A stretch of DNA of 64,000 bases from Chiridota heheva (taxonomy: Eukaryota > Echinodermata > Holothuroidea > Apodida > Chiridotidae), in assembly GCA_020152595.1 (NCBI GenBank), contig JAIGNY010000085.1, positions 1 to 64,000 on the forward strand, written 5' to 3'. The notes beneath the pieces are model-generated. The model ran no database searches and was not told where the DNA came from. It worked only from the letters and a program-made list of their open reading frames with translations. Numbering within the stretch: position 1 is the stretch's first letter; each line of letters opens with the position of its first letter. Of this stretch, positions 1,916-60,590 are shown in pieces. Position numbers and translations under genes: made by a program.

Positions 1916-2190
1916 GTAATTGCATTAATACTGTAAAAGCATGGTATAATTGGAAACCCAGCTAAAAAATCCCCTTAAGAGTCTTTTGGAAATCCCTTAC
2001 AGATCTGAAAGGGTTTCAAAAGGATCTAAAAGGATTCTCAAAGGGATTCTTACCATAAATTGGAACCATGTCAAAGAGTCCCTTTGAGTCCTTTCAAAAT
2101 CTCTAAAATTATGCCTTTAGGTCCCTTTGAGTCCCTTTGAACATCTTCAAAGGAATTCCTCAAAGGGATCTTTTGAGAGTCCTTTTGAAT

Positions 2191-4787
2191 GTGTGCCAAA
2201 TTACTGTAAGAAACCATTTGACAGTCTCTTTGGGTCCCTTTTGGTCCCTTTGAATGTGTGCCAAATTACTGTAAGAAACCATTTGAGAGTCTCTTTGGGT
2301 CCCTTTTGGTCCCTTTGAATGTGTGCCAAATTACTGTAAGAAACCATTTGAGAGTCTCTTTGGGTCCCTTTTGGTCCCTTTGAATGTGTGCCAAATTACT
2401 GTAAGAAACCATTTGAGAGTCTCTTTGGGTCCCTTTTTGGTCCCTTTGAATGTGTGCCAAATTACTGTAAGAAACCATTTGAGAGTCTCTTTGGGTCCCT
2501 TTTGGTCCCTTTGAATGTGTGCCAAATTACTGTAAGAAACCATTTGAGAGTCTCTTTGGGTCCCTTTTGGTCCCTTTGAATGTGTGCCAAATTACTGTAA
2601 GAAACCATTTGAGAGTCTCTTTGGGTCCCTTTTGGTCCCTTTGAATGTGTGCCAAATTACTGTAAGAAACCATTTGAGAGTCTCTTTGGGTCCCTTTTGG
2701 TCCCTTTGAATGTGTGCCAAATTACTGTAAGAAACCATTTGAGAGTCTCTTTGGGTCCCTTTTGGTCCCTTTGAATGTGTGCCAAATTACTGTAAGAAAC
2801 CATTTGAGAGTCTCTTTGGGTCCCTTTTGGTCCCTTTGAATGTGTGCCAAATTACTGTAAGAAACCATTTGAGAGTCTCTTTGGGTCCTTTTGGTCCCTT
2901 TGAATGTGTGCCAAATTACTGTAAGAAACCATTTGAGAGTCTCTTTGGGTCCCTTTTGGTCCCTTTGAATGTGTGCCAAATTACTGTAAGAAACCATTTG
3001 AGAGTCTCTTTGGGTCCCTTTTGGTCCCTTTGAATGTGTGCCAAATTACTGTAAGAAACCATTTGAGAGTCTCTTTGGGTCCCTTTTGGTCCCTTTGAAT
3101 GTGTGCCAAATTACTGTAAGAAACCATTTGAGAGTCTCTTTGGGTCCCTTTTGGTCCCTTTGAATGTGTGCCAAATTACTGTAAGAAACCATTTGAGAGT
3201 CTCTTTGGGTCCCTTTTGGTCCCTTTGAATGTGTGCCAAATTACTGTAAGAAACCATTTGAGAGTCTCTTTGGGTCCCTTTTGGTCCCTTTGAATGTGTG
3301 CCAAATTACTGTAAGAAACCATTTGAGAGTCTCTTTGGGTCCCTTTTGGTCCCTTTGAATGTGTGCCAAATTACTGTAAGAAACCATTTGAGAGTCTCTT
3401 TGGGTCCCTTTTGGTCCCTTTGAATGTGTGCCAAATTACTGTAAGAAACCATTTGAGAGTCTCTTTGGGTCCCTTTTGGTCCCTTTGAATGTGTGCCAAA
3501 TTACTGTAAGAAACCATTTGAGAGTCTCTTTGGGTCCCTTTTGGTCCCTTTGAATGTGCCAAATTACTGTAAGAAACCATTTGAGAGTCTCTTTGGGTCC
3601 CTTTTGGTCCCTTTGAATGTGTGCCAAATTACTGTAAGAAACCATTTGAGAGTCTCTTTGGGTCCCTTTTGGTCCCTTTGAATGTGTGCCAAATTACTGT
3701 AAGAAACCATTTGAGAGTCTCTTTGGGTCCCTTTTGGTCCCTTTGAATGTGTGCCAAATTACTGTAAGAAACCATTTGAGAGTCTCTTTGGGTCCCTTTT
3801 GGTCCCTTTGAATGTGTGCCAAATTACTGTAAGAAACCATTTGAGAGTCTCTTTGGGTCCCTTTTGGTCCCTTTGAATGTGTGCCAAATTACTGTAAGAA
3901 ACCATTTGAGAGTCTCTTTGGGTCCCTTTTGGTCCCTTTGAATGTGTGCCAAATTACTGTAAGAAACCATTTGAGAGTCTCTTTGGGTCCCTTTTGGTCC
4001 CTTTGAATGTGTGCCAAATTACTGTAAGAAACCATTTGAGAGTCTCTTTGGGTCCCTTTTGGTCCCTTTGAATGTGTGCCAAATTACTGTAAGAAACCAT
4101 TTGAGAGTCTCTTTGGGTCCCTTTTGGTCCCTTTGAATGTGTGCCAAATTACTGTAAGAAACCATTTGAGAGTCTCTTTGGGTCCCTTTTGGTCCCTTTG
4201 AATGTGTGCCAAATTACTGTAAGAAACCATTTGAGAGTCTCTTTGGGTCCCTTTTGGTCCCTTTGAATGTGTGCCAAATTACTGTAAGAAACCATTTGAG
4301 AGTCTCTTTGGGTCCCTTTTGGTCCCTTTGAATGTGTGCCAAATTACTGTAAGAAACCATTTGAGAGTCTCTTTGGGTCCCTTTTGGTCCCTTTGAATGT
4401 GTGCCAAATTACTGTAAGAAACCATTTGAGAGTCTCTTTGGGTCCCTTTTGGTCCCTTTGAATGTGTGCCAAATTACTGTAAGAAACCATTTGAGAGTCT
4501 CTTTGGGTCCCTTTTGGTCCCTTTGAATGTGTGCCAAATTACTGTAAGAAACCATTTGAGAGTCTCTTTGGGTCCCTTTTGGTCCCTTTGAATGTGTGCC
4601 AAATTACTGTAAGAAACCATTTGAGAGTCTCTTTGGGTCCCTTTTGGTCCTTTGAATGTGTGCCAAATTACTGTAAGAAACCATTTGAGAGTCTCTTTGG
4701 GTCCCTTTTGGTCCCTTTGAATGTGTGCCAAATTACTGTAAGAAACCATTTGAGAGTCTCTTTGGGTCCCTTTTGGTCCCTTTGAAT
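2191..4787. repeat. 65-bp satellite array, about 40 copies
   Basis: The array is 2597 bp of head-to-tail units of 65 bp. Each unit begins GTGTGCCAAATTACTGTAAG, passes through CCATTTGAGAGTCTCTTTGG and ends with two GGTCCCTTT words. Copies are almost identical; the few length variants include one 66-bp unit near 2432, a 64-bp unit near 2888, a unit lacking GT near 3556 and one lacking C near 4650. Because 65 is not a multiple of three, open frames cross the units in all phases, and none is a gene. Degenerate related words flank the array on the left (1980-2190) and right (4788-4850), as expected if it expanded out of an older, diverged repeat. Confidence 0.97.
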
Positions 4788-26734: not shown

Positions 26735-28024
26735 GCTTCAAAAATTCAAGACATTTTTTTCCAAAACTCGTTAAAATAGAACAAATTTATACCAAAATGT
26801 ACAAAAATTTAAAAATTTGTAGATCATAAGTCTTGAAATCGGAGAATTTAGAGTTATAGATTACAATTAGCCAATAATTGTAGAGGAATATATTTGATGA
26901 CTAAAATAAAAAGATAATTATAATCATGGAACCTAAATATATTTTGATATTTCAAATAACACTTTTTTTAATCTCTGTAAAGGAGCACCTATTAATAATT
27001 ACAAAGAAGATGGGAGAGGGCACGTCAGTTGATGTCATGAAAATGGCCCGGGTCCGAATAGTAAGTTTTCCCTGCATGCACCATTTTAAAGATGCCCTTC
27101 TAATAAAATTTGGGGTAGCACACTCTATAAGGCCCTATTTTTTACAGATTACAAGTTGGGAAAATAAGGGTAGGCAGAGATAAAGGCCTTTTAAGTATGA
27201 AAATGTCTAGTAGGAAGGGCTGTTGGGCATCTAACTTTGTCAATAGATGAAATTTAGAATAGTGCATGGCGCGTCAAACTTCACAATTTTAGTCTTTTTA
27301 GGGTCTCGAAGAGACTAGGAAATATTTTCAAATTCTAGGAATTTGGAAATTTTCTTTTATCTCATGGTAATTTACCTTATCATTATTTAAGTATGATTCT
27401 TATTTTAACACATTAACCAGAGAAAATCAACATTAAGTTTTAATTTCCCTCATTTCAATTAAAAATTAAAATTTCACTTGGAAATTACTTATTACACCTT
27501 GTCATACAAACTCCTACGAGTTTGTGGTACGCTGCCACCATTCATTTATACATAAATGAAAAAACAAGTAAAATAATACAAGATAGACATCAAGTACATG
27601 TTGTCCGTTAATCAAAATCAAACTCCAAACACGAGAAATTGCATTGCTCTAATCTATTGCTCTGTTTCATGTACCAATCTTAATCCCACTCAAAAACCTA
27701 AGCCATCGCTGTCTGATGACGAACTCTCTCTTCTATATTACTCCATCCCTTAATAACTTTAGGTCCTAATAACTTTAGGCCAATCAGGCACACACACATA
27801 TCAATACTTGTTAAACTTAAAACCAATCAGCAACAGACACTTTATTCAGGACCCACCCCTTTTGGTTAAATTTACTAGGGAAGATAAATGAGCATCATGC
27901 CTGCCAATCACAAGTGACTTCTCCAACTGAAATGCCAAGGAGAAGATAGGTTCAAGGAAACCTCAAAATAGGTGATTAATTACACAAAGGGCAGGGTCAG
28001 GAAGATGTAGCAAAACCAAAGTAT
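26735..28024. other. Intergenic, AT-rich
   Basis: No recognisable gene or repeat family was seen. A perfectly ordinary AT-rich spacer leads up to the transposon-like element at 28025. Confidence 0.5.
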
Positions 28025-28194
28025 TAGTAGAGTCAAAATATGAAAAAAAGTGACCTTACCCCAAAAAAATTGCAAGAAAAGGTTTTTTGGCAGTTTTATC
28101 AAGTATGGGGTCTGGAGAAGAACATGATAAAAGTTGGCATCAATCGGATCTCCGGAAAAGGTTTAAATATGGCGTCATAAAAAAGATGGCCGCC
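28025..28194 (+). repeat. Left terminal inverted repeat
   Basis: It begins TAGTAGAGTCAAAATATG, contains ACCCCAAAAAAATTGCAAGA at 28058 and later AAAAGTTGGCA and TAAATATGGCGTCATA, and ends GATGGCCGCC. Each of these blocks recurs, inverted and in the same order, in the right repeat. Confidence 0.85.
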
Positions 28195-28330
28195 GATATA
28201 AGAAATCATTAGAAACTAGGCATAAGTCTGTAATTTAATAGTTTCTAATCATTTTAATAATGAAAATTATCACTAAAACTAAATATCTTGGCACCAACAT
28301 AATTTTTGAAACTTTTCTTGGCATCATCAA

Positions 28331-28400
28331 TAACGTCAGGACCTTATCCGTGACGTCAGGACGTGACCTGTGACGTCATGACGTGATCTATGACGTCAGA
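28331..28400 (+). repeat. Left subterminal repeats, 20-bp period, TGACGTCA core
   Basis: Four units at exactly 20-bp spacing start TAACGTCAGG (28331), TGACGTCAGG (28351), TGACGTCATG (28371) and TGACGTCAGA (28391). TGACGTCA is the palindromic CREB/ATF consensus. The array lies just inside the left TIR, the usual place for transposase-binding subterminal repeats or for an element promoter. Confidence 0.8.
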
Positions 28401-28700
28401 ATATGGTTTATTTCTAATATGTGTGTTCCAGTCCAGATTTGATGGCGCAGGGAGACATTTGATGATTTGAAAGAATTTCAAGTCATTTCTGAAGGTGGGA
28501 ACCAAATGTGGAGTACCTCATGAGTTCATTCTGTTTGTTCAGGATCACAATGGGTTGTGTGCATCTTCCCACATGTATTTGCATCTTCAAGACAATAAAG
28601 AGGATATCTTGATTCTTCTTTCTTTCCATGAAGTAAAAGTGTTAAATCATAAAGCAGTTGAAACAGACATTCTGTCAAAGTGAATCAGTCAGTGAGGTAA

Positions 28701-29075
28701 GTTCACCAAGAAGATAGAGTTGAGATTCGTAAGGAAGGAGCTGAAGGGATCAACAAGGCAAGTGTTAAAAGAGGTGATGACGTTATTCTAGAACCTGGAA
28801 CTTGCGTGCACAAATCTTGTCGCATGATTTACGTAAACAAAAAGGAAATAGAGAAACACAAGAGAGCTTAAGTGAACTTTACCTCACCATTAAAGAGGAA
28901 TACACGTGTCTCTATTAGGGCTTTCGATAGAAAAACAGATTGCTTATACTGTGGCAAAAAGGTGGTGTCAAGTACAAAAGGTGCTGACTGTGAAGATTAT
29001 AGTAGTGTAAAAACATATAACTTTGTGGACAAGATCATTTTGCTTTGTAAAACGAACGAAACTGACTTAGTTTAA
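28701..29075 (+). pseudogene. Transposon protein, N-terminal Cys/His region (broken)
   Basis: The frame encodes IRKEGAEGINKASVKRGDDV, CVHKSCRMIYVNKKEI, then after an in-frame TAA (28869-28871) continues in the same frame with TSPLKRNTRVSIRAFDRKTD and CLYCGKKV, ending at TAA 29073-29075. The C-x(2)-H-x(2)-C and C-x(2)-C pairs suggest a zinc-binding head. Because the frame resumes directly past the first stop with family-like sequence, the stop is a lesion rather than a real end. The region before 28701 holds a 62-codon frame (28495-28683) I could not place. Confidence 0.6.
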
Positions 29076-29305
29076 TGACTAAGTTCCACAGCTGCAGGCC
29101 GTGCTACAAAGTCTAACAAAAATTATACAAGCGCAAAAATATGAGCGAGGAATGAGCACGGAAAAGGGTAGCCAAAGGCCACACGAATAAACAAAACCTG
29201 ACAACAGCCAGGGGACACACAAGTAAACGTGAACACAAAAGGAGTCGTTTCAGTAAAAGACGACAAGATGAATGGGCTTTTTCTGTACAAGGGCAAATTG
29301 AATAC

Positions 29306-31437
29306 TTTAGTAGAGATTTGCATGCTGCAGACTGTTTGTACCATCATTCATGTGATGTACACTTTCGCACCTTCAGAAATATTCCTATACAACACGGGAC
29401 AGATCTAGATAGTGACAACAAGCGAAAGAAAGTTGGGCGACCCATGGACACCGACCAAGAATATGCATTTCTCAAGACATGCTCCTACTTCGAGGACAAC
29501 GATGAGGAACAATTAACTGTAACCTTCCTTGCCAACAAGATGAAGGAATATTTACAAGATAGTGACTCTCTTGCTTATGGCAATCAGTATTTGAAGTCTA
29601 AACTGGTAAAACACTACGGAGAGGCTATTTTTGTGGCTGATGGTGATGGATTACATGATATTGTAACTTTGCGGGAGAAAACAAGCAGAATTCTACGCAA
29701 TTACTTCAATATGCCCAAAGGGGATGGAGAGGAAGCTTAAAAGAAAGCTATCATAGAAACTGTCGCAAAGCTGATCAAAAGTGGTATCAAAACTCTTATC
29801 CCACACAAAGGACGAATATCTGAATGTACAGAACTTGAGCTTGATTTTGCGTTAGCGTTTGTTCCTCCGAGCTTGTGTCTAATGCTGCAACACCTTCTCG
29901 TAGGAAATAACACCAGCGGGAAGGAAGCACGCATTGGGCAAGCGATTGTTCAAGCGGTACGTCCAAGAGCAGTGATAGCTCCGTTACAACTGGGGCTGGG
30001 GTTTAAATGCACCATCACTTTCGATCAAGGTTTTTGACAGTCTGTCTGCCATGGGTTATTGCTCCTCATATAGTGAAGTGCAAAGGTTTGAGGAAAACGC
30101 CGCTTCTTCAGTGGCTCCTGATGTTTTAGGTGAGGACAAAGATATGCATGATATAATGCTTTTATTTGCCGCGGATAATGTTGACCACAACATAGTGACC
30201 CTGGATGGAAAGGGAACATTTCATGGTATGGGGATGGTAGCAGCCATAACACCAGGTACACGAACCAGTCACACTATTCCGAGGAGAAAGATGTCTGACT
30301 TGAACATAGTTGATCAGACGAAGATTTAGATCAAGGATTACCGCTTCGCAAAGAACACTCTTCGTAGCATTAAGCTCACGTCTCTGCCACTTTTGAGTGT
30401 TGTTGATCATAAGATTGATGTATTGTGGGAGATGTTCTTCCGCTTCAAGCAAACACTACCAAATTGGCAAGGAATTATGCACCTGCTACACAAGGACTGT
30501 CTCCACCCTGGACAATCATCAGTATTGTTCCTACCAATGATTGATATGAACCCTGCAGATAAGACATGTATCTTCTCTACATGCTACACTCTACTATATA
30601 TGTGCTCTTGCTTCCAAGCAAAGTGTCCTACCAATTGTAACCTTTGATCAGCCACTCTTTTGGAAAGCTTCTGAGATTATACATGAAGTTCAAGATGGTA
30701 GCCCACTCAGAGATGTTATGTTGTTATTGGGGAGCTTTCATACTTTCATGAATTTGTTGGGGGCCATAGGAACACTGATGGATGGAAGTGGAGTTAGGGA
30801 AATCCTGGAGACGGTGTATGGTGAAAACACTGTAACACATATGATGAGTGGCAAAGCTGTGCAACGTGCATTTCGTGGACATCTTCTTGTTAGGCAGTGT
30901 CTCACGCATCAGATAGTGACCAAGGTAATTGAAGCCGATCCAAGTTTTGAAGATCTAGTTAAAGAGCTGGGGGGATTGTATACTCAAAAGGAGACTGGTT
31001 AAATAAGTTTAGATGCACTGCTGAAAGCAGACTGCATGGAAAGAATTTCCAATGCTCTCACTTTAAGAGAGTGTTATCCAACAACTCAAAAACAAGCAAA
31101 TTGTGGATTAACTATCAACGAATGTTGGGAGTTGCACAGGAGCTTATCAAGGCTGATCGCACAGGGTCATGGCAAATGCATCTCCATGCTATATATGACT
31201 GTTTGCCAATATTTGCTGCTGCTGGACACCCTAACTATCTGAAGTCTGCTTATCTTTACTTACAGAAGATGAGGGATCTTGAAAGTGGAAAGTCCCCAGT
31301 GTTTCAGAAATTCAAAAATGGATTCCATGTTATTCGACGCAGCGAAAAATTATGGGCTGGCCTTAGTCCTGACTTGGTGATCGAGCAGACACTAATGCGG
31401 TCGCTCAAAAGCACTGGTGGGCTAACGAGGAAGTGGC
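29306..31437 (+). pseudogene. Transposon protein, central region (broken)
   Basis: Collinear family segments are spread over the three frames. They are LHAADCLYHHSCDVHFR (from 29306, a second Cys/His motif), an in-frame TAA at 29738, and a continuation to TGA at 30035. Then come SYSEVQRFEENAAS with AADNVDHNIVTLDGKGTFHG (from 30051), a TAG at 30327, and FLPMIDMNPADKTCI. The next frame has VTFDQPLFWKASEI with GSFHTFMNLLGAIGTLMDGS and MMSGKAVQRAFRGHLLV, then a TAA at 31000. The last has KADRTGSWQMHLHAIYDCLP with VIRRSEKLWAGLSPDLVIEQ and LMRSLKSTGGLTR. Frame changes fall near 30020, 30035, 30610, 31070 and 31430. These are hallmarks of a family I recognise from many cnidarian and echinoderm genomes, function unproven. 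Confidence 0.75.
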
Positions 31438-32280
31438 ATGGCAGACCATCAGAGGGCCGTTTGGACAATGTCTGCCCCTGTATCTTTCGCCTACAATTAC
31501 GCCATGCAGGAATTCTGTCAGACATCATATGCAACAAGTGAACAGCACAAGGAGGCATCTGCTTCTCGTATGGACAGGGATATGAGAGACTTAGACAAAC
31601 TTGCGACGAAGCTGGAACACTATTCTCCATTTTCCAATGAGGCAACCTTGCGCAACATTATCATAGGGATAAATGCTGATAAGGGTGTCAATGTTGAAGA
31701 ACTTTTCAATGTAGGCACAGACACAGTAAAACAAATGGAAGGACACCCAGTCTTCTCATATTCCCACAAAAAGAACACTTAAGTGAAGACATTAGCACTA
31801 TCTCAAGCTGTCAAAGTTACAGAGGATCGAACCATTGATCCAGCTCTATTGTTTCAGAGGTTCCTTGTGGTATCGCAGTCAGGTGACATTTGCCTTGATA
31901 GAGTGATGCAATATGAGCTCTTCCTTTATACACCATCCTTATTTGAAGAAAAATATCTCTTGCGAAAACCAGATAAAGCACATCTTCTGGAAGCTTTGAA
32001 AGACCATGGAAGTTCCTTATCAGATGGTGATGTTCTTCAGTCCATTCCAAAGACTGATCACTATGCTCTTGACAGAGGTTCCCTCCTACATCGATTGAAA
32101 TGGACCGAGGGGAGCACTTACACTTCAATTGCAGATTCGTATGCATCTTTTACGTCCGAACTGTATGGTAATGCCACTGTTGTCTTTGATGGGTACATGG
32201 AAGACCATCCACAAAAGACAACACCCACCAAAGACGAAGCCGAAATCAGGTCACCGACAAGGTCAACATTGTGGAGTCAA
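31438..32280 (+). pseudogene. Transposon protein, middle-to-C-terminal region (broken)
   Basis: One frame encodes NYAMQEFCQTSYATSEQHKE, then LRNIIIGINADKGVNVEELF, to an in-frame TAA at 31780-31782. It resumes without a frame change: RTIDPALLFQRFLVVSQSGD, YELFLYTPSLFE, LLHRLKWTEGSTYTSIADSY and VVFDGYMEDHP. The order and spacing match the same invertebrate family. The frame is lost near 32270, where the sequence of the next segment switches phase. Confidence 0.75.
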
Positions 32281-32852
32281 CCAAATTTTCTGGGAAAAAA
32301 GAGGATTTTCTTTTAAACACAATGAATAAACAGGCCCTTATTAAGCTGATGACGAAATACTTGCGCCAGAAAGGCTGCAAGGAATTCAGGCTGAGGGTGA
32401 GGCTGATGTCGACATCGTAAAAGCAGCAATCACAATGGCATCCTTCAAGTCAACAACTCTCATCGGGGAAGATACAGATCTTTTGGTTTTGCTCTTGTAT
32501 CATGGAACCACGAATGACTGCAAAGACCTGTACTTTAGATCAGACAAAGGTAAACTAAATGTGTATAACATTAAAGTTCTGAAACTGTTCCTAGGGGAAG
32601 AAGTGTGCTCCGATCTGCTGTTTGCCCATGCGTTTTCCATATGCGACACTACCTCACGAATTTTTGGGGTTGGAAAGAAGTCCATCTTTAGAAAGGTCAT
32701 CAAGGGCGAATCTGTCTTGCGTGCTTGTTCCAAAATCTTTCGCACACCAAAGGCAAATCCAGAGACTGTAGAAACCACCAGCTGCAAAGAAATGCTTTCA
32801 TTGTTTAATGGGACTCATTCTGACTCTCTGGCATCATTGCGCTACAGCTTCC
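32281..32852 (+). pseudogene. Transposon protein, PIN/FEN1-like nuclease motifs (broken)
   Basis: The first part reads GKKEDFLLNTMNKQALIKLM in one frame. After a shift near 32385 it continues DVDIVKAAITMAS and LIGEDTDLLVLLLYH (32459-32503), FRSDKGKLNVYNI and AHAFSICDTTSRIFGVGK. The acidic GEDTDLL and CDTTS blocks are how PIN/FEN1-like metal-dependent nucleases are usually recognised. In the family the second block normally reads SGCDTTS, so Ile replaces Gly here (32636-32656). The frame is lost again after ASLRY near 32845. Confidence 0.7.
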
Positions 32853-33242
32853 TTTGCAAAAAAAGTGGCCACAGCAAAGACTTTTGTGGCACCCGAAAGG
32901 CTGCCCCCAACGACATCAGCCACAAAACTTCACTCACGGAGGGTGTATCTTCAAATTATGGTGTGGATGTGTACGGACGGTGGCATGGATTCTTCAGACT
33001 GGGGCTGGAGTGCACAAGGGGGTCAACTGATTCCACTCATGATGGACAAAAGCCCTGCTCCTAAAAGTCTGTTGAAAATGATACACTGGGACTGCTCGAC
33101 AGGTTGCCGCACACTCAAATGTAGCTGCAAAAAACATGGCCTTGAGTGTACCCAAGCCTGTGGACCTTGTCAAGAAGACCCTTGTGATAATATATCCCTC
33201 AACCCAGTATCAGATGATGATGGTAATGAAGGCTGCATGTAA
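32853..33242 (+). pseudogene. Transposon protein, C-terminal eight-cysteine finger
   Basis: In a new frame the family sequence resumes with FAKKVATAKTFVAPERLPPT and DSSDWGWSAQGGQLIP, then a cysteine cluster at about 33093-33186 with spacing C-x3-C-x4-C-x-C-x6-C-x3-C-x2-C-x4-C. A short acidic tail leads to TAA at 33240-33242. The cluster resembles the tesmin/TSO1 CXC motif, a zinc-binding DNA-contacting fold, and also the Cys8 finger I recall from Academ transposases. All eight cysteines are present, so this part is intact apart from its loss of frame with the upstream domains. Confidence 0.75.
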
Positions 33243-33472
33243 CTGTGAAGGTAAATTACCAAACAAACCAATATGTGCATTTATGTCTTCTAATTTATAA
33301 TTGCATAAGGAAAACATTAAATGTCGATATTAATTCATTAAGTGGTTGATGATGTTGAAATCTAGACTGCAATGAACACGAATAGATGACAAAAAGTTAG
33401 CCATTATAACCACAGCTTATCCAGGACATCACAGTGAAAGAATCATGATATTAAGAAAAATACATGACATAA

Positions 33473-33520
33473 TGACGTCATAGATGACGTCATAGATGAC
33501 ACTATCACAACATAACGTCA
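33473..33520. repeat. Right subterminal repeats, TGACGTCA core
   Basis: TGACGTCA occurs at 33473 and 33485 (12-bp period, joined by TAGA), a half site TGAC follows at 33497 and TAACGTCA at 33513. A further TGACGTCA lies within the right TIR at 33665. The motif thus marks both ends of the element. Confidence 0.75.
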
Positions 33521-33650
33521 CACAGGTACATTGGTCAGATTGAAAAATTAACCAGCATGTAAGATACTGATGCCTTAAACTTGTTTCCATACTTAAAGAT
33601 GCCAGAAACCGTATGCAAATCATTGAAATTGAGCATTTTATTACATTTTG

Positions 33651-33807
33651 GCAGCCATTTTGTATGACGTCATATTTAGACCCTTTCCGTTGGTCAGATT
33701 TTTGCCAACTTTTAGTATGTTAATCTCCAGGTCAAATAGTACCAAAAAATGCAAAAAAACCTTTTCTTGCAATTTTTTTGGGGTTACGTTGTATATTGAC
33801 TCTACTA
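33651..33807 (-). repeat. Right terminal inverted repeat
   Basis: Read inwards from 33807 it gives TAGTAGAGTCAATATAC, then the 31-nt block shared exactly with the left end, then AAAAGTTGGCA, TAAATATGACGTCATA and AAATGGCTGCC. It is shorter than the left repeat by about 13 bp through small gaps. Confidence 0.85.
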
Positions 33808-33810
33808 TAT

Positions 33811-35120
33811 TCAGCCCATGACAATGATAAATTGCTCATGGAGTAAGAGACAGACCACACAGCACAGAGACACCGTGGCTGTGGTCAGTGAAGGAGACAC
33901 AGCCAGTGATTACAGGCAAAATTAGGACAAATGGGATAATTATCTCAAAAGTGAACAATTCTGACATTGAAATAGTACAGGGAGAACCACAATAACTAAT
34001 GGGGTAATAAATAAGTATAGGTTAATGCCCTGTGCTAATTCCATCCACCATCAAAGCTATACTGAATAAATAAATTCTAAGCTAAGAAACAAAATACCAT
34101 CATTAACAATAAGCAAACAAAAAAACCTAAATACAAGATGAATACATAAGCAGATACATGAATAATCAAAATACATGAAGTACCACATATGACACATGTG
34201 AGAAGGGGCTACTTTATGACACACCTCTTCCAATTTAAAGGGCAATGATAATATTAGTGTTACTTTCTTTAATGAAAAGATCAGATATATAGTCTTTGAA
34301 GAAAAAGATTGTCAATGTTTGGAAAGGCAGGTTCCTTCTCTAAAAAGGGCACTTGTTCTCTTTGAAAGGGAACATTTCTATTTTAAAAAGGGCACTTTTC
34401 CTCAGAAAAGGGCATTTTTCCTCTCTGAAAAATGGCACTTTTTAAACTTTTGAGAAAATTGGAGTGCAAGTGACCCCGGTTCAGCCGCCTATGCCCTCAC
34501 CACATGGGGCAAGACTCTTCATGAATTGTTCAACAAGTTCAAAGCGTTATTTACGCCCTTGGCTATAGACTATAGATTACGGCCCTAACTATAGACTACG
34601 CCCCTAACTATAATCTACGCCCCTGGCTATAGACTACGGCCCTAACTATAGACTACGCCCCTGGCTATAGAAATAAAGATTGCTTTACTTCCTGCTTTTC
34701 TGTTGATGTTCTAAAAAAATATATTTTGGCCATTAAAATTGAAATTGCTAATCAATTTCGCTCCACCACGCCATGTGCGTGCGTGACCCATGGGATGTCT
34801 TTTTATAGGACTAATTCTAGATGCACAAGCCTATAAAACTAAACCAAATGTAAGTTGGGCCTATGTTGAACTTCATCAAATTAAAGTTTTAACATATTTC
34901 TCATTTCAAAAATGCAGAATTTCCAACCGGGACTCAAGAAATACTGAATATACCATGTCCTGAGTTCCACAACAGAAAATACCCGCATATGATATAGGGC
35001 TTATTCTATCGTGTGTGAACTCGAGAGCAAAAGTTCTTACGTACAACATGCAGTATGGGAAAACCCGATGCGCACATAAACTGATAAAGAAAGTTGCATA
35101 AGACTTAACCTAAAATCTAC
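33811..35120. other. Intergenic
   Basis: No gene was recognised. A GGGCACTT-rich degenerate stretch at 34340-34500 is loosely like the dispersed repeat family at 37822 and 40213. The 19-bp array at 34553-34673 is listed separately. Confidence 0.5.
34553..34673. repeat. 19-bp tandem repeat, about 6 copies
   Basis: Units of the type GCCCCTAACTATAGACTAC, with 'ggctatag' and 'ataatc' variants. Confidence 0.9.
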
Positions 35121-35123
35121 CTA

Positions 35124-35379
35124 CTGTGGTGTAGCGGTTATATTACCTGTCTACAGACCACGAGGCCCCGGGTTCAATCCTGGGGTGGGTAGACACGCCA
35201 GTGCACCACAACTGGTTATCAAAGGCCGTGGACATTGACTTGGTTGTCGAATGTTATGTCTGTCCGTACGTCGTACCTGTGTTCTCGTCCGGGTCGTATT
35301 AAGCGTTTCGTGATAGCATTTGTACTATCATAACCGAATACGCAGGCGACGACCCCGTCATTGTAATTGTGTGTTCAAC
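35124..35379 (+). mobile_element. tRNA-derived SINE, copy 2
   Basis: A box TGGTGTAGCGG and B box GGTTCAATCCT are both present. The body and 3' end (ttgtaattgtgtgttcaa) match copy 1 with few differences, so the family was active fairly recently. No unambiguous target-site duplication was found. Confidence 0.87.
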
Positions 35380-49974: not shown

Positions 49975-51265
49975 ATGTGCATGTGGGTCATAGGTGGGAT
50001 GACATGTGGATCATAATGTTGGGTGGCATGTGGGTCATAGGTGGGATGACATGCGGATCATAATGTTGGGTGGCATGTGGGTCATAGGTGGGATGACACG
50101 TGGATCATAATGTTGGGTGGCATGTGGGTCATAGGTGGGATGACACGTGGATCATAATGTTGGGTGGCATGTGGGTCATAGGTGGGATGACACGTGGATC
50201 ATAATGTTGGATGGCATGTGGGTCATAGGTGGGATGACACGTGGATCATAATGTTGGGTGGCATGTGGGTCATAGGTGAGATGACACGTGGATCATAATG
50301 TTGGGTGGCATGTGGGTCATAGGTGGGATGACATGTGGATCATAATGTTGGGTGGCATGTGGGTCATAGGTGGGATGACATGTGGATCATAATGTTGGGT
50401 GGCATGTGGGTCATAGGTGAGATGACATGTGGATCATAATGTTGGGTGGCATGTGGGTCATAGGTGGGATGACATGTGGATCATAATGTTGGGTGGCATG
50501 TGGGTCATAGGTGGGATGACACGTGGATCATAATGTTGGGTGGCATGTGGGTCATAGGTGGGATGACACGTGGATCATAATGTTGGGTGGCATGTGGGTC
50601 ATAGGTGGGATGACACGTGGATCATAATGTTGGGTGGCATGTGGGTCATAGGTGAGATGACACGTGGATCATAATGTTGGGTGGCATGTGGGTCATAGGT
50701 GGGATGACATGTGGATCATAATGTTGGGTGGCATGTGGGTCATAGGTGGGATGACATGTGGATCATAATGTTGGGTGGCATGTGGGTCATAGGTGAGATG
50801 ACATGTGGATCATAATGTTGGGTGGCATGTGGGTCATAGGTGGGATGACATGTGGATCATAATGTTGGGTGGCATGTGGGTCATAGGTGGGATGATACGT
50901 GGATCATAATGTTGGGTGGCATGTGGGTCATAGATGGGATGTCACGTGGATCATAATGTTGGGTGGCATGTGGGTCATAGGTGGGATGATACGTGGATCA
51001 TAATGTTGGGTGGCATGTGGGTCATAGATGGGATGTCACGTGGATCATAATGTTGGGTGGCATGTGGGTCATAGGTGGGATGACATGTGGATCATAATGT
51101 TGGGTTGCATGTGGGTCATAGGTGGAATGACATGTGGATCATAATGTTGGGTGGCACGTGGGTCATAGGTGGGATGACATGTGGATCATAATCTTGGGTG
51201 GCATGTGGGTCATAGGTGGGATGACATGTGGATCATAATGCTGGGTGGCATGTGGGTCATAGGTG
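49975..51265. repeat. 47-bp satellite array, about 27 copies (array 1)
   Basis: Units of exactly 47 bp run TGGGTCATAGGTGGGATGAC, AYGTGGATCATAATGTTGGG, tggcatg. Copies differ mainly at one C/T (ACGTGG or ATGTGG) and one G/A (gggatg or gagatg). Those two sites recur in a shifted order, suggesting block duplication of several units at once. Confidence 0.97.
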
Positions 51266-52830
51266 GGGTGGCATGATAATTGGTAGAGGGTTGAATTGCG
51301 CATACGAAATATGGTGCAGTATAACGTGGGACAGGGTGGGATGGAATAGTGGGTGTAATGGCGAACGTGTTAACTGTCGTATGGGAAATAGTCTCGGGGT
51401 GGTGTGTGAGACAAAGATGGTATGGCTTATGGCGCATAGTATGGAATATCATATGAGGCATAAGGTGAGATGGATGGCATATGGTACATAGGTTGAAATG
51501 CCTGGCACGATGGTATGTTGGGCATATATGGTAGATAGAAAATATTGGATAGAAGATGGGATTGGTTAAAAGAGAAAGGGTGGGATATCATGTGGAACAT
51601 GAGGTGGGTTGGCATAACAGACGTGGGGTGACATAAACGGGATAGTGCGTGTACGACATGGATGGCATATGGTACATAAGTTAAAATGTCACCTGGAGCA
51701 TGTGGGTCGTATGCTGCGATGGAAAATATTGGATAAAGAAGATGGAATTGAAAATACAACATAGGGTGGGATATCATATGGGACATATAGGGTGGAATGC
51801 CATATGGGGAAAAGGGTGAAATGTCACATTGGACACAGGGTGGAATGTCACATGGAGCAGGGTGACATGTACATGATACTGGGTTTGGCGTCCACGTATG
51901 CGACATAGCGTGGATTGTCGTGTGGGACATGGTTTGGGATGGGACATATGGTGAAATAGCATATGGGACATAGGGTGTGTTGTCATACGGAGCATAGGGT
52001 GGTTTGTTATTAGGAGCATAGGGTTGGATGGCATGTGGGACAAAGGGTGGACTGGAACATACTGAATGAAGGTGGGAATGCGCATAAGAAAAAAGTTAGA
52101 TACCATGTGGGACATTGGGTGGGTTCGAATGTGGGATAGGGTGGCATGTGTATAGAGGGTACGATGATATACAAATAAAGGATGGGTTGCGTGGGAGGAT
52201 AACATTGGATAGTATATGGGCATAAGATGAGATAAAGAGTTGGAAGAGTTGGAATGACATATGGAGCATAGGGTGCGATGGAATGTGAGACGTAGGGGTG
52301 GCATAGTGTTTTGAACATATGGGTGAAAGGTATTATATAAGGGTGAGATTGCGTATACAAAATAGCTTGAAATATCATATGTGGATTGTTCGGCATATGG
52401 AATAAGGTAATATGCATGGGATAGTGGGTTTGACATTCACGTAAGCGAAATAGCGTGGGATGTCATATGGGACATAGTTTAGGATGGGGCATATGATAAG
52501 ATGACATGTGAATTAGAATGGAATGACATGTAGGACATATGGTGGGATGGCACGTGGAACATAGGGGACAAAGTGGGATGACATGTGTTGTATGGTGGAT
52601 ATGATTGCGTACATGTATAATACAGAGAGTGGGTTGTAATATGAGTCATGGGTGGAATGGCAAATGAGATATGGATGGGAGGGTATATGAGGCATAATAT
52701 TGTATGGTATATGGAACATATGGTGGGACAGACTCAAGGGTCGGATGTTAAATGGTACATAGGTTTTAGTGACGTATTGGGCATAGGGTGCGATGATATG
52801 GGTGACGTATTGAGGCAGCGTCAATGGTGT
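51265..52830. repeat. Degenerate ~23-bp array (copy 1)
   Basis: Strongly diverged units built on CATATGGGACATAGGGTGGG words, clearly of the same type as the 47-bp satellite but much older. Purine-rich plus-strand composition leaves long minus-strand frames (up to 220 codons) rich in His, Pro, Ser and Met. A near-identical copy occupies 60340-61880. Confidence 0.9.
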
Positions 52831-53134
52831 GTGTGTGTAGGGAGGGGAAGAGGGGGTGGCAACGACTCGAACATAATTTATTGCACAACTCCAAGGTAGT
52901 ATAATTTCATATTGTTGCCTTTTAAGGAGTTTGAAAAACGCTGTCAAATTGTCAATGTTTAACCAATTTTGACGAAAGATTTTGTCACTTTCATCAAAAT
53001 ACAAATTTGTGAAGTATTTGTGGAATTTTCTTTTGTAAATGTTTTTTAATGGGCGTATTTCATTATATATTCACAATACCCACAATCAAGTTTGAGCAAG
53101 ATTAGTCTTTCCCATCATTTTTGCGACATATTTA
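52830..53134. other. Unique spacer of the macro-unit, copy 1
   Basis: Non-repetitive sequence beginning with a short (TG)n and purine run. Duplicated at about 61890-62194. No gene seen. Confidence 0.6.
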
Positions 53135-53366
53135 AAGGGGCACTAGATCAAAAAGTGCGGACGTATTTTTATCCCCCTCTCCATAATCAAATGCTTATCT
53201 AGTACGCAACGGTATAGCAATTTTCTAATTAATATGAATATTCAAGTAAACTTAGCCCTCACGTCTGTGGGCTATTGAGGCATGAAGTTTATCGATCTGT
53301 TGTTGATAATATATCTGTGAAATTTGCATAAACGAGCGCCCCCACTTTTCTTTTTAGTGTTCCCCT
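53135..53366. mobile_element. MITE-like segment with AGGGG(A)CACTA ends, copy 1
   Basis: The left end AAAGGGGCACTAGATCAAAA and the inverted right end (AGGGGAACACTAAAAAGAAA read from 53366) are similar for about 25 bp including an AAAAGTG word. It is duplicated at about 62195-62430 as part of the macro-unit. The target-site duplication is unclear. Confidence 0.45.
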
Positions 53367-53420
53367 AATTAAAAAGCAAAGAGTTGCTTAGTTGCTTTAA
53401 GAAAAAGTTACAACTTTAAA

Positions 53421-53867
53421 GTCGTGTGACTAAAGTCGTGTGACTTTAAAATCGTGTGGCTTTCAGTCGTGTGGCTATAAGTCGTGTGGCTATAAGTCGC
53501 GTGGCTTTAAGTTGCGTGGCTTTAAGTCGTGGGACTTTAAGTCGCATGGCTTTAAGTCGCGTGGCTTTAAGTCGTGTGCATCTAAGTCGTGTGCATCTAA
53601 GTCGTGTGGCACAAAGTCGTGTGGCTCTTTGTCGTGTGGCTCTAAGTCATGTGGCTCTAAGTCGTGTGGCTCTAAGTCGTGTGGCTCTAAGTCGTGTGGC
53701 TCTAAGTCGTGTGGCTCTAAGTCGTGTGACTCTAAGTCGTGTGACTCTAAGTCGGGTGACTCTAAGTCGTGTGACTCTAAGTCGTGTGACTCTAAGTCGT
53801 GTGACTCCAAGTCGTGTGACTCCAAGTCGTGTGACTCCAAGTCGTGTGACTCCAAGTCGTGTGACTC
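53421..53867. repeat. 15-bp array TCGTGTGGCTCTAAG, about 30 copies
   Basis: Perfectly phased 15-bp units drift from GTGTGGCTATAA through GTGTGGCTCTAA to GTGTGACTCTAA and GTGTGACTCCAA. The 15-bp period is a multiple of three, so all frames stay open and give Ser/Lys/Cys, Leu/Ser/Arg and Glu/Ser/His repeats. It abuts the next TTTTCG array directly. Confidence 0.97.
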
Positions 53868-55365
53868 TATTTTCCTTCATTTTCGTAAAACTTGACTCCA
53901 TTTTCGTGAAATTTGCATCATTTTCGGAATGTTTTCTTCAATTTTGGGAAAATTTCCTTTATTTTCGGGGAATTTCCTTCATTTTCAGAAAATTTCCTTT
54001 GATTTTTCGAAATTTTTCTTTAATGTTTGGGAACTTTTCTTCGATTTTCAGGAAATTTTACCAAAGCAGCGCTTCCGGAGGTTTCGCCTCCTGGACCCCT
54101 CCCAGGGCTTTGACGGTTCGGTTCTTATATTCGAAACACTGATTTTAGGCAATTTTTTTAACTGTTCATGCCAATTTACTTCTATGTGCTCAATGATTTT
54201 ACTCTTATGAGCTTTTTCGGGGAGAGGGGGCGCCAAAATTCCCTTTCCCCCAGTAAAACATGACCCACCACGCCACTACAAAAGTATGTTTTTGTGAACA
54301 AAATATAGAGCATAGAGAAGAGAGGCAGTGTGGATCGCCCTCTGAAATACCGGTGTATTTCTTTTATTGTCAAAACGTGTAACATTTTCTGTTTCGTCTA
54401 TATGGCACAGTAAAAGTATATGAGAAGTAGGGTGCAATATGGAAACATGCATCAAGTTTAATGAAAATTAAATTTAAAATCTTGAATTTTAAAGATGTGA
54501 GCCCTTCGAATTACTCCCCGACTGTTTCGGTAGGCCTCTACCTGCCTGCAAAAAACAAGTATTGATTTAAGATCTATGGACAGTGTCATATTTCAACAAC
54601 ATCAACCATGAAAATAGCAACAACAAACAAAAAGTAACATATTCGGTTCAAAAAGCGGCCATTTTACTGCTGCATTTTAAATTTTCAGGTCTTTATTATA
54701 ACAAATTACGCAAATTTGTATAGAAATTGAGACATAGTAACAAATTAACTTTTGACATAATCTAAAGACAATTCTGCAGTGGCGTATGTAAATAATTGAA
54801 ATTAACGCGGGGTGGAGGGGGAGGTTGATATTTGTCCCAACAGACCTACAAAAATGTACGACGGGTCTCTTATCACTATTTGTAAAGGAAGGGGGGGTTG
54901 GGTTGAAAATGGAGGAAATTTCCAGAAAATGAAGAAAATTTCACGAAAATGTAGGAACTTTTACTAAAATTGATGAAAATTTCTCAAATAGGAAGGCAAA
55001 TTTCCCGAAAATTGAAGAAGATATCCCAAAAATGAAGGAAATTTCATGAACATTGAAGGAAATTTACCGAAAATTGAAAACGTTTCGAAAATTGATGGAG
55101 GTTTCTCGAGAACTAAAGATTGAAGAAAATGCCTTGGAATCTGAATTTGATTTTTCAAAATTAATTCGTTAGACCTTTATCATTAAAAGGAGGGGGGGGG
55201 GGGGAATTATCCTCTGGTCCCAGTTCCTACGCCACTGTTCTGTTCAATATCTAAGGAGCTTTGTGGTGAATATAACATCTCTATCTGTCCATATACAGTT
55301 AAATAAGGTATTTGTTCTATAACACATGTTAAAATGTAGATCCCGACTTGCTATTATTCAAAATG
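53868..55365. repeat. Macro-unit copy 2: TTTTCG arm, core, inverse arm, spacer
   Basis: Near-identical duplicate of about 48385-49975. It consists of a forward TTTTCG arm 53868-54062 (shorter than arm 1), a core 54062-54900, an inverse arm 54905-55105 (several units lost relative to copy 1) and a spacer to 55365 that includes TCTATCTGTCCATATACAGT. Confidence 0.92.
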
Positions 55366-55890
55366 TGCGTGTGGGTCATAGGTGGGATGACATGTGGATC
55401 ATAATGTTGGGTGGCATGTGGGTCATAGGTGAGATGACATGTGGATCATAATGTTGGGTGGCATGTGGGTCATAGGTGGGATGACATGTGGATCATAATG
55501 TTGGGTGGCATGTGGGTCATAGGTGGGATGACACGTGGATCATAATGTTGGGTGGCATGTGGGTCATCGTGGATCATAATGTTGGGTGGCATGTGGGTCA
55601 TAGGTGAGATGACATGTGGATCATAATGTTGGGTGGCATGTGGGTCATAGGTGGGATGACATGCGGATCATAATGTTGGGTGGCATGTGGGTCATAGGTG
55701 GGATGACACGTGGATCATAATGTTGGGTGGCATGTGGGTCATAGGTGGGATGACACGTGGATCATAATGTTGGGTGGCATGTGGGTCATAGGTGGGATGA
55801 CATGTGGATCATAATGTTGGGTGGCATGTGGGCCATAGGTGGGATGACATGTGGATCATAATGTTGGGTGGCATGTGGGTCATAGGTGGG
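55365..55890. repeat. 47-bp satellite, array 2
   Basis: About 11 units of the same 47-bp repeat, with one internal deletion at about 55567 (gggtcatcgtgg). Confidence 0.96.
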
Positions 55891-56141
55891 GTGGCATGAT
55901 AATGGGTAGAGGTTGGATTGCGCATACGAAATATGGTGCAGTATAACGTGGGACAGGGTGGGATGGAATAGTGGGTGTAATGGCGAACGTGTTAACTGTC
56001 GTATGTGAAATAGTTTTGGGGTGGTGTGTGAGACAAAGATGGTATGGCTTATGGCGCATAGTATGGAATATCATATGAGGCATAAGGTGAGATGGATGGC
56101 ATATGGTACATAAGTTAAAATGCCTGGCACGATGGTATGTA
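55890..56141. repeat. Fragment of the degenerate ~23-bp array
   Basis: It copies 51265-51510 and then breaks off abruptly at tggtatgtatgaatga into inverse TTTTCG-arm sequence. The same junction recurs at 57373, 58363 and 59600. Confidence 0.9.
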
Positions 56142-58362
56142 TGAATGAAATTTCCAGAAAATGAAGAAAATTTCACGAAAATGTAGAACTTTTACTAAAA
56201 TTGATGAAAATTTCTCAAATAAGAAGACAAATTTCCCGAAAATTGAAGAAGATATCCCAAAAATGAAGGAAATTTCATGAACATTGAAGAAATTTACCGA
56301 AAATTGAAAACGTTTCGAAAATTGATGGAGGTTTCTCGAGAACTAAAGATTGAAGAAAATGCCTTGGAATCTGAATTTGATTTTCAAAATTAATTCGTTA
56401 GACCTTTATCATTAAAAGGAGGGGGAATTATCCTCTGGTCCCAGTTCCTACGCCACTGTTCTGTTCAATATCTAAGGAGCTTTGTGGTGAATATAACATC
56501 TCTATCTGTCCATATACAGTTAAATAAGGTATTTGTTCTATAACACATGTTAAAATGTAGATCCTGACTTGCTATTATTCAAAATGTGCGTGTGGGTCAT
56601 AGGTGGGATGACATGTGGATCATAATGTTGGGTGGCATGTGGGTCATAGGTGAGATGACATGTGGATCATAATGTTGGGTGGCATGTGGGTCATAGGTGG
56701 GATGACATGTGGATCATAATGTTGGGTGGCATGTGGGTCATAGGTGGGATGACACGTGGATCATAATGTTGGGTGGCATGTGGGTCATAGGTGGGATGAC
56801 ACGTGGATCATAATGTTGGGTGGCATGTGGGTCATAGGTGAGATGACATGTGGATCATAATGTTGGGTGGCATGTGGGTCATAGGTGGGATGACATGCGG
56901 ATCATAATGTTGGGTGGCATGTGGGTCATAGGTGGGATGACACGTGGATCATAATGTTGGGTGGCATGTGGGTCATAGGTGGGATGACACGTGGATCATA
57001 ATGTTGGGTGGCATGTGGGTCATAGGTGGGATGACATGTGGATCATAATGTTGGGTGGCATGTGGGCCATAGGTGGGATGACATGTGGATCATAATGTTG
57101 GGTGGCATGTGGGTCATAGGTGGGGTGGCATGATAATGGGTAGAGGGTTGGATTGCGCATACGAAATATGGTGCAGTATAACGTGGGACAGGGTGGGATG
57201 GAATAGTGGGTGTAATGGCGAACGTGTTAACTGTCGTATGTGAAATAGTTTTGGGGTGGTGTGTGAGACAAAGATGGTATGGCTTATGGCGCATAGTATG
57301 GAATATCATATGAGGCATAAGGTGAGATGGATGGCATATGGTACATAAGTTAAAATGCCTGGCACGATGGTATGTATGAATGAAATTTCCAGAAAATGAA
57401 GAAAATTTCACGAAAATGTAGGAACTTTTACTAAAATTGATGAAAATTTCTCAAATAAGAAGACAAATTTCCGAAAATTGAAGAAGATATCCCGAAAATG
57501 AAGGAAATTTCATGAACATTGAAGGAAATTTACCGAAAATTGAAAACGTTTCGAAAATGCGGATCATAATGTTGGGTGGCATGTGGGTCATAGGTGGGAT
57601 GACACGCGGATCATAATGTTGGGTGGCATGTGGGGTCATAGGTGGGATGACACGTGGATCATAATGTTGGGTGGCATGTGGGTCATAGGTGGGATGACAC
57701 GTGGATCATAATGTTGGGTGGCATGTGGGTCATAGGTGGGATGACACGTGGATCATAATGTTGGGTGGCATGTGGGTCATAGGTGAGATGACATGTGGAT
57801 CATAATGTTGGGTGGCATGTGGGTCATAGGTGGGATGACATGCGGATCATAATGTTGGGTGGCATGTGGGTCATAGGTGGGATGACACGTGGATCATAAT
57901 GTTGGGTGGCATGTGGGTCATAGGTGGGATGTTACGTGGATCATAATGTTGGGTGGCATGTGGGTCATAGGTGGGATGACACGTGGATCATAATGTTGGG
58001 TGGCATGTGGGTCATAGGTGGGATGACATGGATCATAATGTTGGGTGGCATGTGGGCCATAGGTGGGATGACATGTGGATCATAATGTTGGGTGGCATGT
58101 GGGTCATAGGTGGGGTGGCATGATAATGGGTAGAGGGTTGGATTGCGCATACGAAATATGGTGCAGTATAACGTGGGACAGGGTGGGATGGAATAGTGGG
58201 TGTAATGGCGAACGTGTTAACTGTCGTATGTGAAATAGTTTTGGGGTGGTGTGTGAGACAAAGATGGTATGGCTTATGGCGCATAGTATGGAATATCATA
58301 TGAGGCATAAGGTGAGATGGATGGCATATGGTACATAAGTTAAAATGCCTGGCACGATGGTA
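56141..58362. repeat. Higher-order repeat, copy 1 (~2.22 kb, two subunits)
   Basis: Subunit A (56141-57372, ~1232 bp) has a TTTTCG arm, the full spacer, a 47-bp array (56580-57130) and a 23-bp-array fragment. Subunit B (57373-58362, ~990 bp) has a shortened arm that jumps at about 57558 (cgaaaatgcggatcataatg) straight into the 47-bp array, lacking the spacer, and then the same fragment. Confidence 0.9.
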
Positions 58363-60590
58363 TGTATGAATGAAATTTCCAGAAAATGAAGAAAATTTCA
58401 CGAAAATGTAGGAACTTTTACTAAAATTGATGAAAATTTCTCAAATAAGAAGACAAATTTCCCGAAAATTGAAGAAGATATCCCAAAAATGAAGGAAATT
58501 TCATGAACATTGAAGGAAATTTACCGAAAATTGAAAACGTTTCGAAAATTGATGGAGGTTTCTCGAGAACTAAAGATTGAAGAAAATGCCTTGGAATCTG
58601 AATTTGATTTTCAAAATTAATTCGTTAGACCTTTATCATTAAAAGGAGGGGGAATTATCCTCTGGTCCCAGTTCCTACGCCACTGTTCTGTTCAATATCT
58701 AAGGAGCTTTGTGGTGAATATAACATCTCTATCTGTCCATATACAGTTAAATAAGGTATTTGTTCTATAACACATGTTAAAATGTAGATCCCGACTTGCT
58801 ATTATTCAAAATGTGCGTGTGGGTCATAGGTGGGATGACATGTGGATCATAATGTTGGGTGGCATGTGGGTCATAGGTGAGATGACATGTGGATCATAAT
58901 GTTGGGTGGCATGTGGGTCATAGGTGGGATGACATGTGGATCATAATGTTGGGTGGCATGTGGGTCATAGGTGGGATGACACGTGGATCATAATGTTGGG
59001 TGGCATGTGGGTCATAGGTGGGATGACACGTGGATCATAATGTTGGGTGGCATGTGGGTCATAGGTGAGATGACATGTGGATCATAATGTTGGGTGGCAT
59101 GTGGGTCATAGGTGGGATGACATGCGGATCATAATGTTGGGTGGCATGTGGGTCATAGGTGGGATGACACGTGGATCATAATGTTGGGTGGCATGTGGGT
59201 CATAGGTGGGATGACACGTGGATCATAATGTTGGGTGGCATGTGGGTCATAGGTGGGATGACATGTGGATCATAATGTTGGGTGGCATGTGGGCCATAGG
59301 TGGGATGACATGTGGATCATAATGTTGGGTGGCATGTGGGTCATAGGTGGGGTGGCATGATAATGGGTAGAGGGTTGGATTGCGCATACGAAATATGGTG
59401 CAGTATAACGTGGGACAGGGTGGGATGGAATAGTGGGTGTAATGGCGAACGTGTTAACTGTCGTATGTGAAATAGTTTTGGGGTGGTGTGTGAGACAAAG
59501 ATGGTATGGCTTATGGCGCATAGTATGGAATATCATATGAGGCATAAGGTGAGATGGATGGCATATGGTACATAAGTTAAAATGCCTGGCACGATGGTAT
59601 GTATGAATGAAATTTCCAGAAAATGAAGAAAATTTCACGAAAATGTAGGAACTTTTACTAAAATTGATGAAAATTTCTCAAATAAGAAGACAAATTTCCC
59701 GAAAATTGAAGAAGATATCCCGAAAATGAAGGAAATTTCATGAACATTGAAGGAAATTTACCGAAAATTGAAAACGTTTCGAAAATGCGGATCATAATGT
59801 TGGGTGGCATGTGGGTCATAGGTGGGATGACACGCGGATCATAATGTTGGGTGGCATGTGGGGTCATAGGTGGGATGACACGTGGATCATAATGTTGGGT
59901 GGCATGTGGGTCATAGGTGGGATGACACGTGGATCATAATGTTGGGTGGCATGTGGGTCATAGGTGGGATGACACGTGGATCATAATGTTGGGTGGCATG
60001 TGGGTCATAGGTGAGATGACATGTGGATCATAATGTTGGGTGGCATGTGGGTCATAGGTGGGATGACATGCGGATCATAATGTTGGGTGGCATGTGGGTC
60101 ATAGGTGGGATGACACGTGGATCATAATGTTGGGTGGCATGTGGGTCATAGGTGGGATGTTACGTGGATCATAATGTTGGGTGGCATGTGGGTCATAGGT
60201 GGGATGACACGTGGATCATAATGTTGGGTGGCATGTGGGTCATAGGTGGGATGACATGTGGATCATAATGTTGGGTGGCATGTGGGCCATAGGTGGGATG
60301 ACATGTGGATCATAATGTTGGGTGGCATGTGGGTCATAGGTGGGGTGGCATGATAATGGGTAGAGGGTTGGATTGCGCATACGAAATATGGTGCAGTATA
60401 ACGTGGGACAGGGTGGGATGGAATAGTGGGTGTAATGGCGAACGTGTTAACTGTCGTATGGGAAATAGTTTTGGGGTGGTGTGTGAGACAAAGATGGTAT
60501 GGCTTATGGCGCATAGTATGGAATATCATATGAGGCATAAGGTGAGATGGATGGCATATGGTACATAGGTTGAAATGCCTGGCACGATGG
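58363..60590. repeat. Higher-order repeat, copy 2 (~2.23 kb)
   Basis: Repeats A (58363-59599) then B (from 59600) of the preceding unit. The distinctive arm-to-array jump recurs at 59785, 2227 bp after the first. Only scattered substitutions and small indels separate the copies, for example a shortened gatgacatgg unit in copy 1 near 58025. Its end runs on into the full ~23-bp array rather than the broken fragment. Confidence 0.9.

Follow-up and report, generated by a model that had tools for sequence, protein, structure and literature searches.

A decayed DNA transposon, probably of the AcademX lineage, in the genome of the holothurian Chiridota heheva

Boundaries and inverted ends of the element

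The stretch of the Chiridota heheva genome analyzed here (the window; contig JAIGNY010000085.1, positions 1 to 64,000) contains, at positions 28025–33807, a copy of what is very probably a class II DNA transposon, now dead and most likely belonging to the AcademX lineage of the Academ superfamily. The element is 5,783 bp long, with boundaries exact to the base, and is a member of a transposon family with at least dozens of copies in the genome; no second copy was found within the 64-kb window. A previous interpretation made from the letters of the window alone (the sequence-only reading) had proposed long imperfect terminal inverted repeats (TIRs) in the correct orientation, sharing a 31-nt identical block and flanked by TAT, and alignment and coordinates confirm this arrangement (Table 1). 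The TIRs are 171–181 nt long, and their alignment, which begins at the outermost base of each end, comprises 183 columns with 81.7% identity across 169 ungapped pairs. Its local score of 145 compares with a maximum of 35 among 1,000 shuffles and also surpasses the 112 reached by pairs of segments drawn at random from the window, which is rich in repeats. Just inside the element ends, on both sides, lie repeats with TGACGTCA-like cores, a palindrome that we take to resemble a CREB/ATF site.

Copies in the genome and target-site duplications

The 1.10-Gb assembly was searched with the left 170 nt, the right 170 nt and 139 amino acids of the nuclease-like part of the encoded protein. The left end gave 354 candidate places, the 40 scored being 95–100% identical to the query, and the right end gave 346, with 97–100% identity among the 40 scored. 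Twenty places (L009–L028) were retrieved, ten of them picked because they were listed for both ends. In one, L020, no right end was found and 2,400 bases are N; the other 19, together with the window copy, form a set of 20 two-ended copies.

Exact 3-bp target-site duplications (TSDs) flank 19 of these 20 copies, and their sequences vary: TAT occurs four times, TAA, CAA and ATA twice each, and GTG, CGA, TGT, TTA, TGA, CCA, AAA, CAG and CTT once each. The only copy lacking an exact duplication is L018, whose right tip is damaged. Shifting the right flank by 1–3 bases reduces the matching triplets to 0–4 of 20, and the equality expected by chance, estimated from the triplets of the window, is 0.019 per copy. 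The 3-bp duplication suggested by the sequence-only reading is thus borne out.

The protein query returned 721 candidates, with 151 matches counted. Among 30 loci chosen by protein match, of which one is the window copy (L029) and three others belong to the TSD set (L045, L053, and L057), 26 terminate with the exact right tip TAGTAGAGTC, indicating that the protein is a property of the transposon. As for the remaining four, the right end is missing in L031, the tip is altered in L054, and the alignments of L039 and L056 to the right end begin only at base 41 or 48. Searching with the ends and the internal region therefore recovered boundaries and TSDs at many copies, and strongly supports the earlier proposal of a transposon-borne protein bounded exactly at 28025 and 33807. 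Of the several hundred candidates, 19 retrieved copies with both ends and 30 loci picked by protein were inspected, and these showed neither a protein always devoid of the ends nor ends bordering unrelated sequence with no conserved boundary.

A separate observation concerns contig C1530 of the assembly (G000; about 392404–398633), where the core and nuclease-like parts occur twice, exactly 4,204 bp apart. The listed rows of this pair are nearly or exactly equal, resembling a head-to-tail duplication.

Size classes and divergence of the family

Seven of the 20 retrieved places are full-length (5.54–5.93 kb), like the window copy. Eleven (L012–L018, L021, and L025–L027) represent a deletion class of about 4.4 kb (4.18–4.56 kb) without the region corresponding to about 28508–29967 of the window, and L024 lacks 31423–32436. 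Mean Kimura two-parameter distances (K2P) are 0.045 within the full-length group (n = 8, window included), 0.042 within the short group (n = 11), and 0.051 between the groups; the nearest copy to the window element is L019 (K2P 0.021). The two ends of a single copy are 79.9–85.2% identical (20 copies), the alignment of L024 falling short of the tips. Since each end is at least 95% conserved among the scored places, the asymmetry of the TIRs is a property of the family rather than a result of decay.

Coding remains and their decay

Nine coding pieces, distributed over three frames between 28722 and 33239, are collinear as a single protein, and other copies, like the divergent relatives, keep the same order. 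The sequence-only reading had recognized them as the decayed remains of one large protein, which is confirmed.

Its placement of the element was also correct as to the boundaries, but the stretch 29053–29252 within it proved to be a nested high-copy repeat foreign to the element. This repeat is missing from all seven other full-length copies retrieved. The segment 29053–29243 has 640 candidate places in the genome, and among the 41 matches listed, the window's own included, 40 are at least 98% identical and one is 96% identical. An intron at this position was considered and rejected: strict GT–AG removal disrupts the downstream frame, as judged by eye, and the stretch is repeated elsewhere, which together identify an insertion. 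The break in the N-terminal coding region of the window copy is due to this insertion, as other copies read through.

Table 1. Coordinates of the features of the element in the window and of related matches
Feature	Position	Strand	Remarks
Left TSD copy, TAT	28022–28024		Exact 3-bp duplication in 19/20 two-ended copies
Left TIR, tip TAGTAGAGTC	28025–28205	+	40 scored genomic places, ≥95% identity
31-nt block	28058–28088	+	Equals 33754–33784 on the opposite strand; longest exact match between the TIRs
Subterminal 20-bp tandem repeats, TGACGTCA-like cores	28333–28399	+	Partly inverted counterpart at 33458–33500
N-terminal coding piece, Cys/His zinc-finger-like motifs (by eye)	28722–29052	+	Continues into 29253 in other copies
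Nested young repeat, ~200 bp	29053–29252		GTAAAA on both sides (29047–29052, 29253–29258); not part of the transposon
Coding piece	29253–30016	+	One internal stop
Putative D-D-E core, first part	30030–30593	+	Candidate first acid 30174–30176 (ADN.DHN..TLDG..TFHGMG)
Putative D-D-E core, second part	30607–31086	+	Candidate second acid 30646–30648 (TFDQPL)
Candidate third acid	30799–30801 or 30808–30810	+	SG..E.LE.VY
Downstream transposase part (putative)	31095–31427	+	Matching part of two sister families has a weak Pfam DUF6589 match
Coding piece	31456–32244	+	XPG-N-like motifs at its end (LDRGSLLHRL, VVFDGY)
Coding piece between the nuclease-like halves	32253–32375	+	
XPG-I-like half	32384–32800	+	GEAD, IGEDTDLLVLL, HAFSICDTTS
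C-terminal coding piece	32898–33239	+	
Eight-cysteine motif	33093–33185	+	CxxxCx4CxCx6CxxxCxxCx4C
Right TIR	33637–33807	−	40 scored genomic places, ≥97% identity
Right TSD copy, TAT	33808–33810		Pairs with the left TAT
Sister-family DUF6589 match regions	L070:3–1340, L069:3–488		Sub-threshold

Frames and decay were examined in 19 copies: the eight full-length copies, including that of the window, and the eleven short ones. All 19 are broken and drift neutrally. Each carries 2–7 in-frame stops, and the longest open frame among them is 544 amino acids. Private single substitutions in the pooled frame comprise 143 synonymous, 409 non-synonymous and 25 stop changes, a ratio expected under drift. 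The column majority of all 19 copies is open over 1,106 amino acids of the shared part. This single frame belongs to the pooled majority and is not a property of the 4.4-kb form, whose own majority is split into frames of 438 and 645 amino acids; in the full-length group the majority falls into two frames, 822 and 605 amino acids long, that overlap. Two nucleotides absent from all eight full-length copies, where the frames are separated, are present in ten of the eleven short copies, where the frames are fused, and one nucleotide is absent from eight of the eleven short copies. Taken together, these majorities and shared breaks point to a gene of about 1,400 amino acids with no visible introns, and the breaks common to each class indicate that both apparently spread in trans from broken founders.

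It is improbable, in our judgment, that the full-length form instead functions as two overlapping frames joined by ribosomal frameshifting, with the zinc finger and D-D-E-like core in the first and the nuclease-like part and eight cysteines in the second, and that DUF6589 represents the transposase domain in Academ-like elements. The simpler and favored reading is that a founder already dead passed on the frame break.

Other frames listed for the genome reach 783 amino acids, besides three exceeding 1,800, one of which contains N. The very long frames C3116 (1,861 amino acids) and C926 (1,834 amino acids) are explained by runs of N (2,400 N in L020, and L077). Two other very long frames listed are C2768 (1,832 amino acids) and C3432 (2,106 amino acids). 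The loci L077 and L078, which have XPG_N matches and long frames, were considered as intact relatives and rejected, as they look to us like host genes of the Asteroid type.

Putative transposase core

Between the zinc-finger-like and nuclease-like parts lies a putative D-D-E core, which adds to the description given by the sequence-only reading. The candidate acids, spaced by 154 and then 51 or 54 residues, may form the catalytic triad. In an alignment whose rows are loci, some deriving from one copy, the first and second acids are conserved in 28/33 and 30/35 rows, and the two possible third acids in 26/34 and 31/34. They are also present in the divergent sister family L069 and, over the covered part, in L070.

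The second half of the Pfam family DUF6589 (PF20231) is matched by L070 (E 3.8e-5, 23 bits) and L069 (E 0.0025, 17 bits), both below the gathering score of 27; rescanned together with its adjoining piece, L069 gave E 0.0039. The read-through cores of the window and of L022 have no DUF6589 match, and no mention of DUF6589 was found in the literature searched. As a lead, this type of transposase may have in its downstream part a relative of DUF6589.

Nuclease-like part and eight-cysteine motif

Downstream of the core, the motifs LD.GS.LHR, VVFDGY, (E/D)AD, GEDTDLLVLL and HAF.GCDTTS follow one another in the order of what we take, by eye, to be the metal-binding acids of FEN1/XPG nucleases, and this part is likely of the PIN/XPG type. 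The acids are conserved in most rows. All four divergent relatives deviate at one or two of eight positions: L070 at two, L072 at two, with E additionally replacing the first D, and L071 and L073 at one each.

The eight cysteines of the finger claimed previously are present in the window and conserved in most rows, each cysteine being retained in 44–48 of 46–49 rows. In the divergent relatives (L069 and L073, which come from one place, L070, L071, and L072) the parts follow one another in an unchanged order over whatever was retrieved of each.

Several weak Pfam matches were judged to be due to chance: AtpR, HAT_Syf1, Ig_TMEM132, DUF7110 (E 0.015, and E 0.012 in one of six), TNT, BORCS6 and Exonuc_VII_S. 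No relatives were found in viral contigs, in prokaryote genome contigs by one pattern scan, or in phages with a 239-amino-acid frame as the query. The only other query run against plasmids and phages was a host EXO1 exon, meant to gather nuclease relatives, and it gave nothing useful.

Other features of the window

A tandem array of 40 copies of a 65-bp unit with 99% matches occupies 2179–4787, and several separate arrays of a 47-bp unit lie at 49979–60352 within larger, kilobase-sized, near-identical duplicated blocks. ARAGORN predicts a tRNA-Cys with anticodon ACA at 35118–35192; it is probably spurious, since Rfam at gathering thresholds gives no match in the window.

Discussion

The proposed mode of transposition combines the parts of a single protein. 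Its zinc fingers would bind the imperfect, stably asymmetric ends, and the D-D-E core would cut the ends and, with a stagger of 3 nt, join them to target DNA. Carried in the same chain, the PIN/XPG-like nuclease may trim or cleave DNA intermediates such as hairpins, flaps or the second strand. The protein was probably supplied in trans by an intact relative, by which the sampled copies spread.

Several results weigh against this picture or against the placement in AcademX. A PDB search with the D-D-E core gave no match, and single-sequence AlphaFold2 models of two open frames reached a predicted local distance difference test score (pLDDT) of only 41.4 and 30.3, too low to inform on a D-D-E fold. 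Pfam and PDB yielded no relevant match for the window pieces or the nuclease-region sequences. XPG_I (PF00867) has 5 matching places in the genome and XPG_N (PF00752) has 13, none of them among the listed places of the element. With hhalign, the (E/D)AD and EDxD motifs align with host FEN1/EXO1/XPG exons (P 0.17; 8/100 column shuffles scoring as high), and FDG, (E/D)AD and GxDxD with a host Asteroid-like protein (P 0.049; 5/200 column shuffles scoring as high), neither alignment being significant. The PIN/XPG-like nuclease of the sequence-only reading thus stands as regards its mostly conserved acidic motifs, whereas the Pfam, PDB and hhalign comparisons do not bear it out at significance. The second cysteine of the motif is lost in L072 and L073, the last falls within a gap in L072, and the retrieved surroundings of C2364, a divergent relative, turned up no ends. 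The AcademX placement itself compares architecture, length and TSD.

Among the alternative explanations, the one that assigns the element to some other superfamily of DNA transposons, or to one not yet described, with a 3-bp TSD and a likeness to AcademX confined to the nuclease-like part and cysteine-rich tail, is unlikely. It would agree with the result that no Pfam model exceeds the cut-off for any window or sister-family piece scanned, and with a placement made by architecture, length and TSD alone; but the length, the TSD, the nuclease-like part behind the core and the C-terminal cysteines all accord with descriptions of AcademX. A different division of labor, in which the nuclease-like, cysteine-rich half is a captured passenger and an unrelated element performs the transposition in trans, is much less probable still. 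Since the measured copies are all broken, frame breaks are shared within both classes and the deletion form has multiplied, supply in trans is likely, and to this extent the passenger reading fits. Against it, the core, the nuclease-like part and the cysteine motif keep the same order in divergent families of this one genome (L069 with L073, and L070), which indicates that the parts have long travelled together.

Proteins of this type are often left in annotations as ordinary uncharacterized genes, which could suggest host gene remnants lying by chance between inverted repeats, with no transposon involved. This possibility is practically negligible in view of the exact right tip at 26 of 30 protein loci, the differing duplications at 19 of 20 copies and the hundreds of candidate places. 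In this genome the protein is a property of a transposon, for which ends and TSDs have now been measured. Because no Pfam model reaches its cut-off for the scanned pieces, genes of this sort can readily be mistaken for those of the host. The weak DUF6589 link, which appeared in the sister families only, offers a lead for annotating that domain.

The AcademX interpretation, favored over these alternatives, makes the element real but largely ordinary, most likely of a known kind. The lineage and its superfamily were reportedly described by Kapitonov and Jurka in 2010 and by Kojima in 2020. AcademX proteins have an XPG-like nuclease and a C-terminal Cys8 zinc finger, which the eight cysteines of the element match. 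Other superfamilies have different marks: Kolobok has a TTAA TSD, EnSpm/CACTA has CACTA-like termini with a 3-bp TSD, and Harbinger has a TWA triplet. The element fits none of them, as its TSDs are varied 3-bp sequences rather than TTAA, its termini are TAGTAGAGTC and not CACTA-like, and its triplets include GTG, CGA, CCA, CAG and CTT. The motif order VFDG, (E/D)AD, EDxD, GCD is shared with the PIN-like nucleases XPG, FEN1, EXO1 and Asteroid; in the hhalign register, the stretch from (E/D)AD to EDxD is three residues longer in the element than in the host EXO1 exon. The literature searched contained no text combining any two of Academ, XPG and the Cys8 zinc finger.

According to one report, AcademX elements have TSDs of 3 or 4 bp and encode a nuclease, and AcademH elements have TSDs of 9 or 10 bp and encode a helicase (PMC10045372). 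The 3-bp TSD of the present family falls within the AcademX range and differs from that of AcademH, although the superfamily is reportedly the same. No helicase family was found in ten open frames (E ≤ 5) or in four read-through pieces (E ≤ 10), and an AAA_34 match in one of six nuclease-region sequences (E 0.065) is at chance level. TIRs are present in both AcademX and the family described here, and the candidate D, D, E residues and the acidic motifs suggest that a transposase-like core and a nuclease-like part are likewise combined. The full-length copies, at 5.54–5.93 kb, agree with the mean of 5,565 bp given for bivalve Academ consensus elements in another study (PMC10294476). On architecture, length and TSD, the element most likely represents a new family of AcademX, whose particulars within that lineage are the stable asymmetry of its ends and the 4.4-kb derivative.

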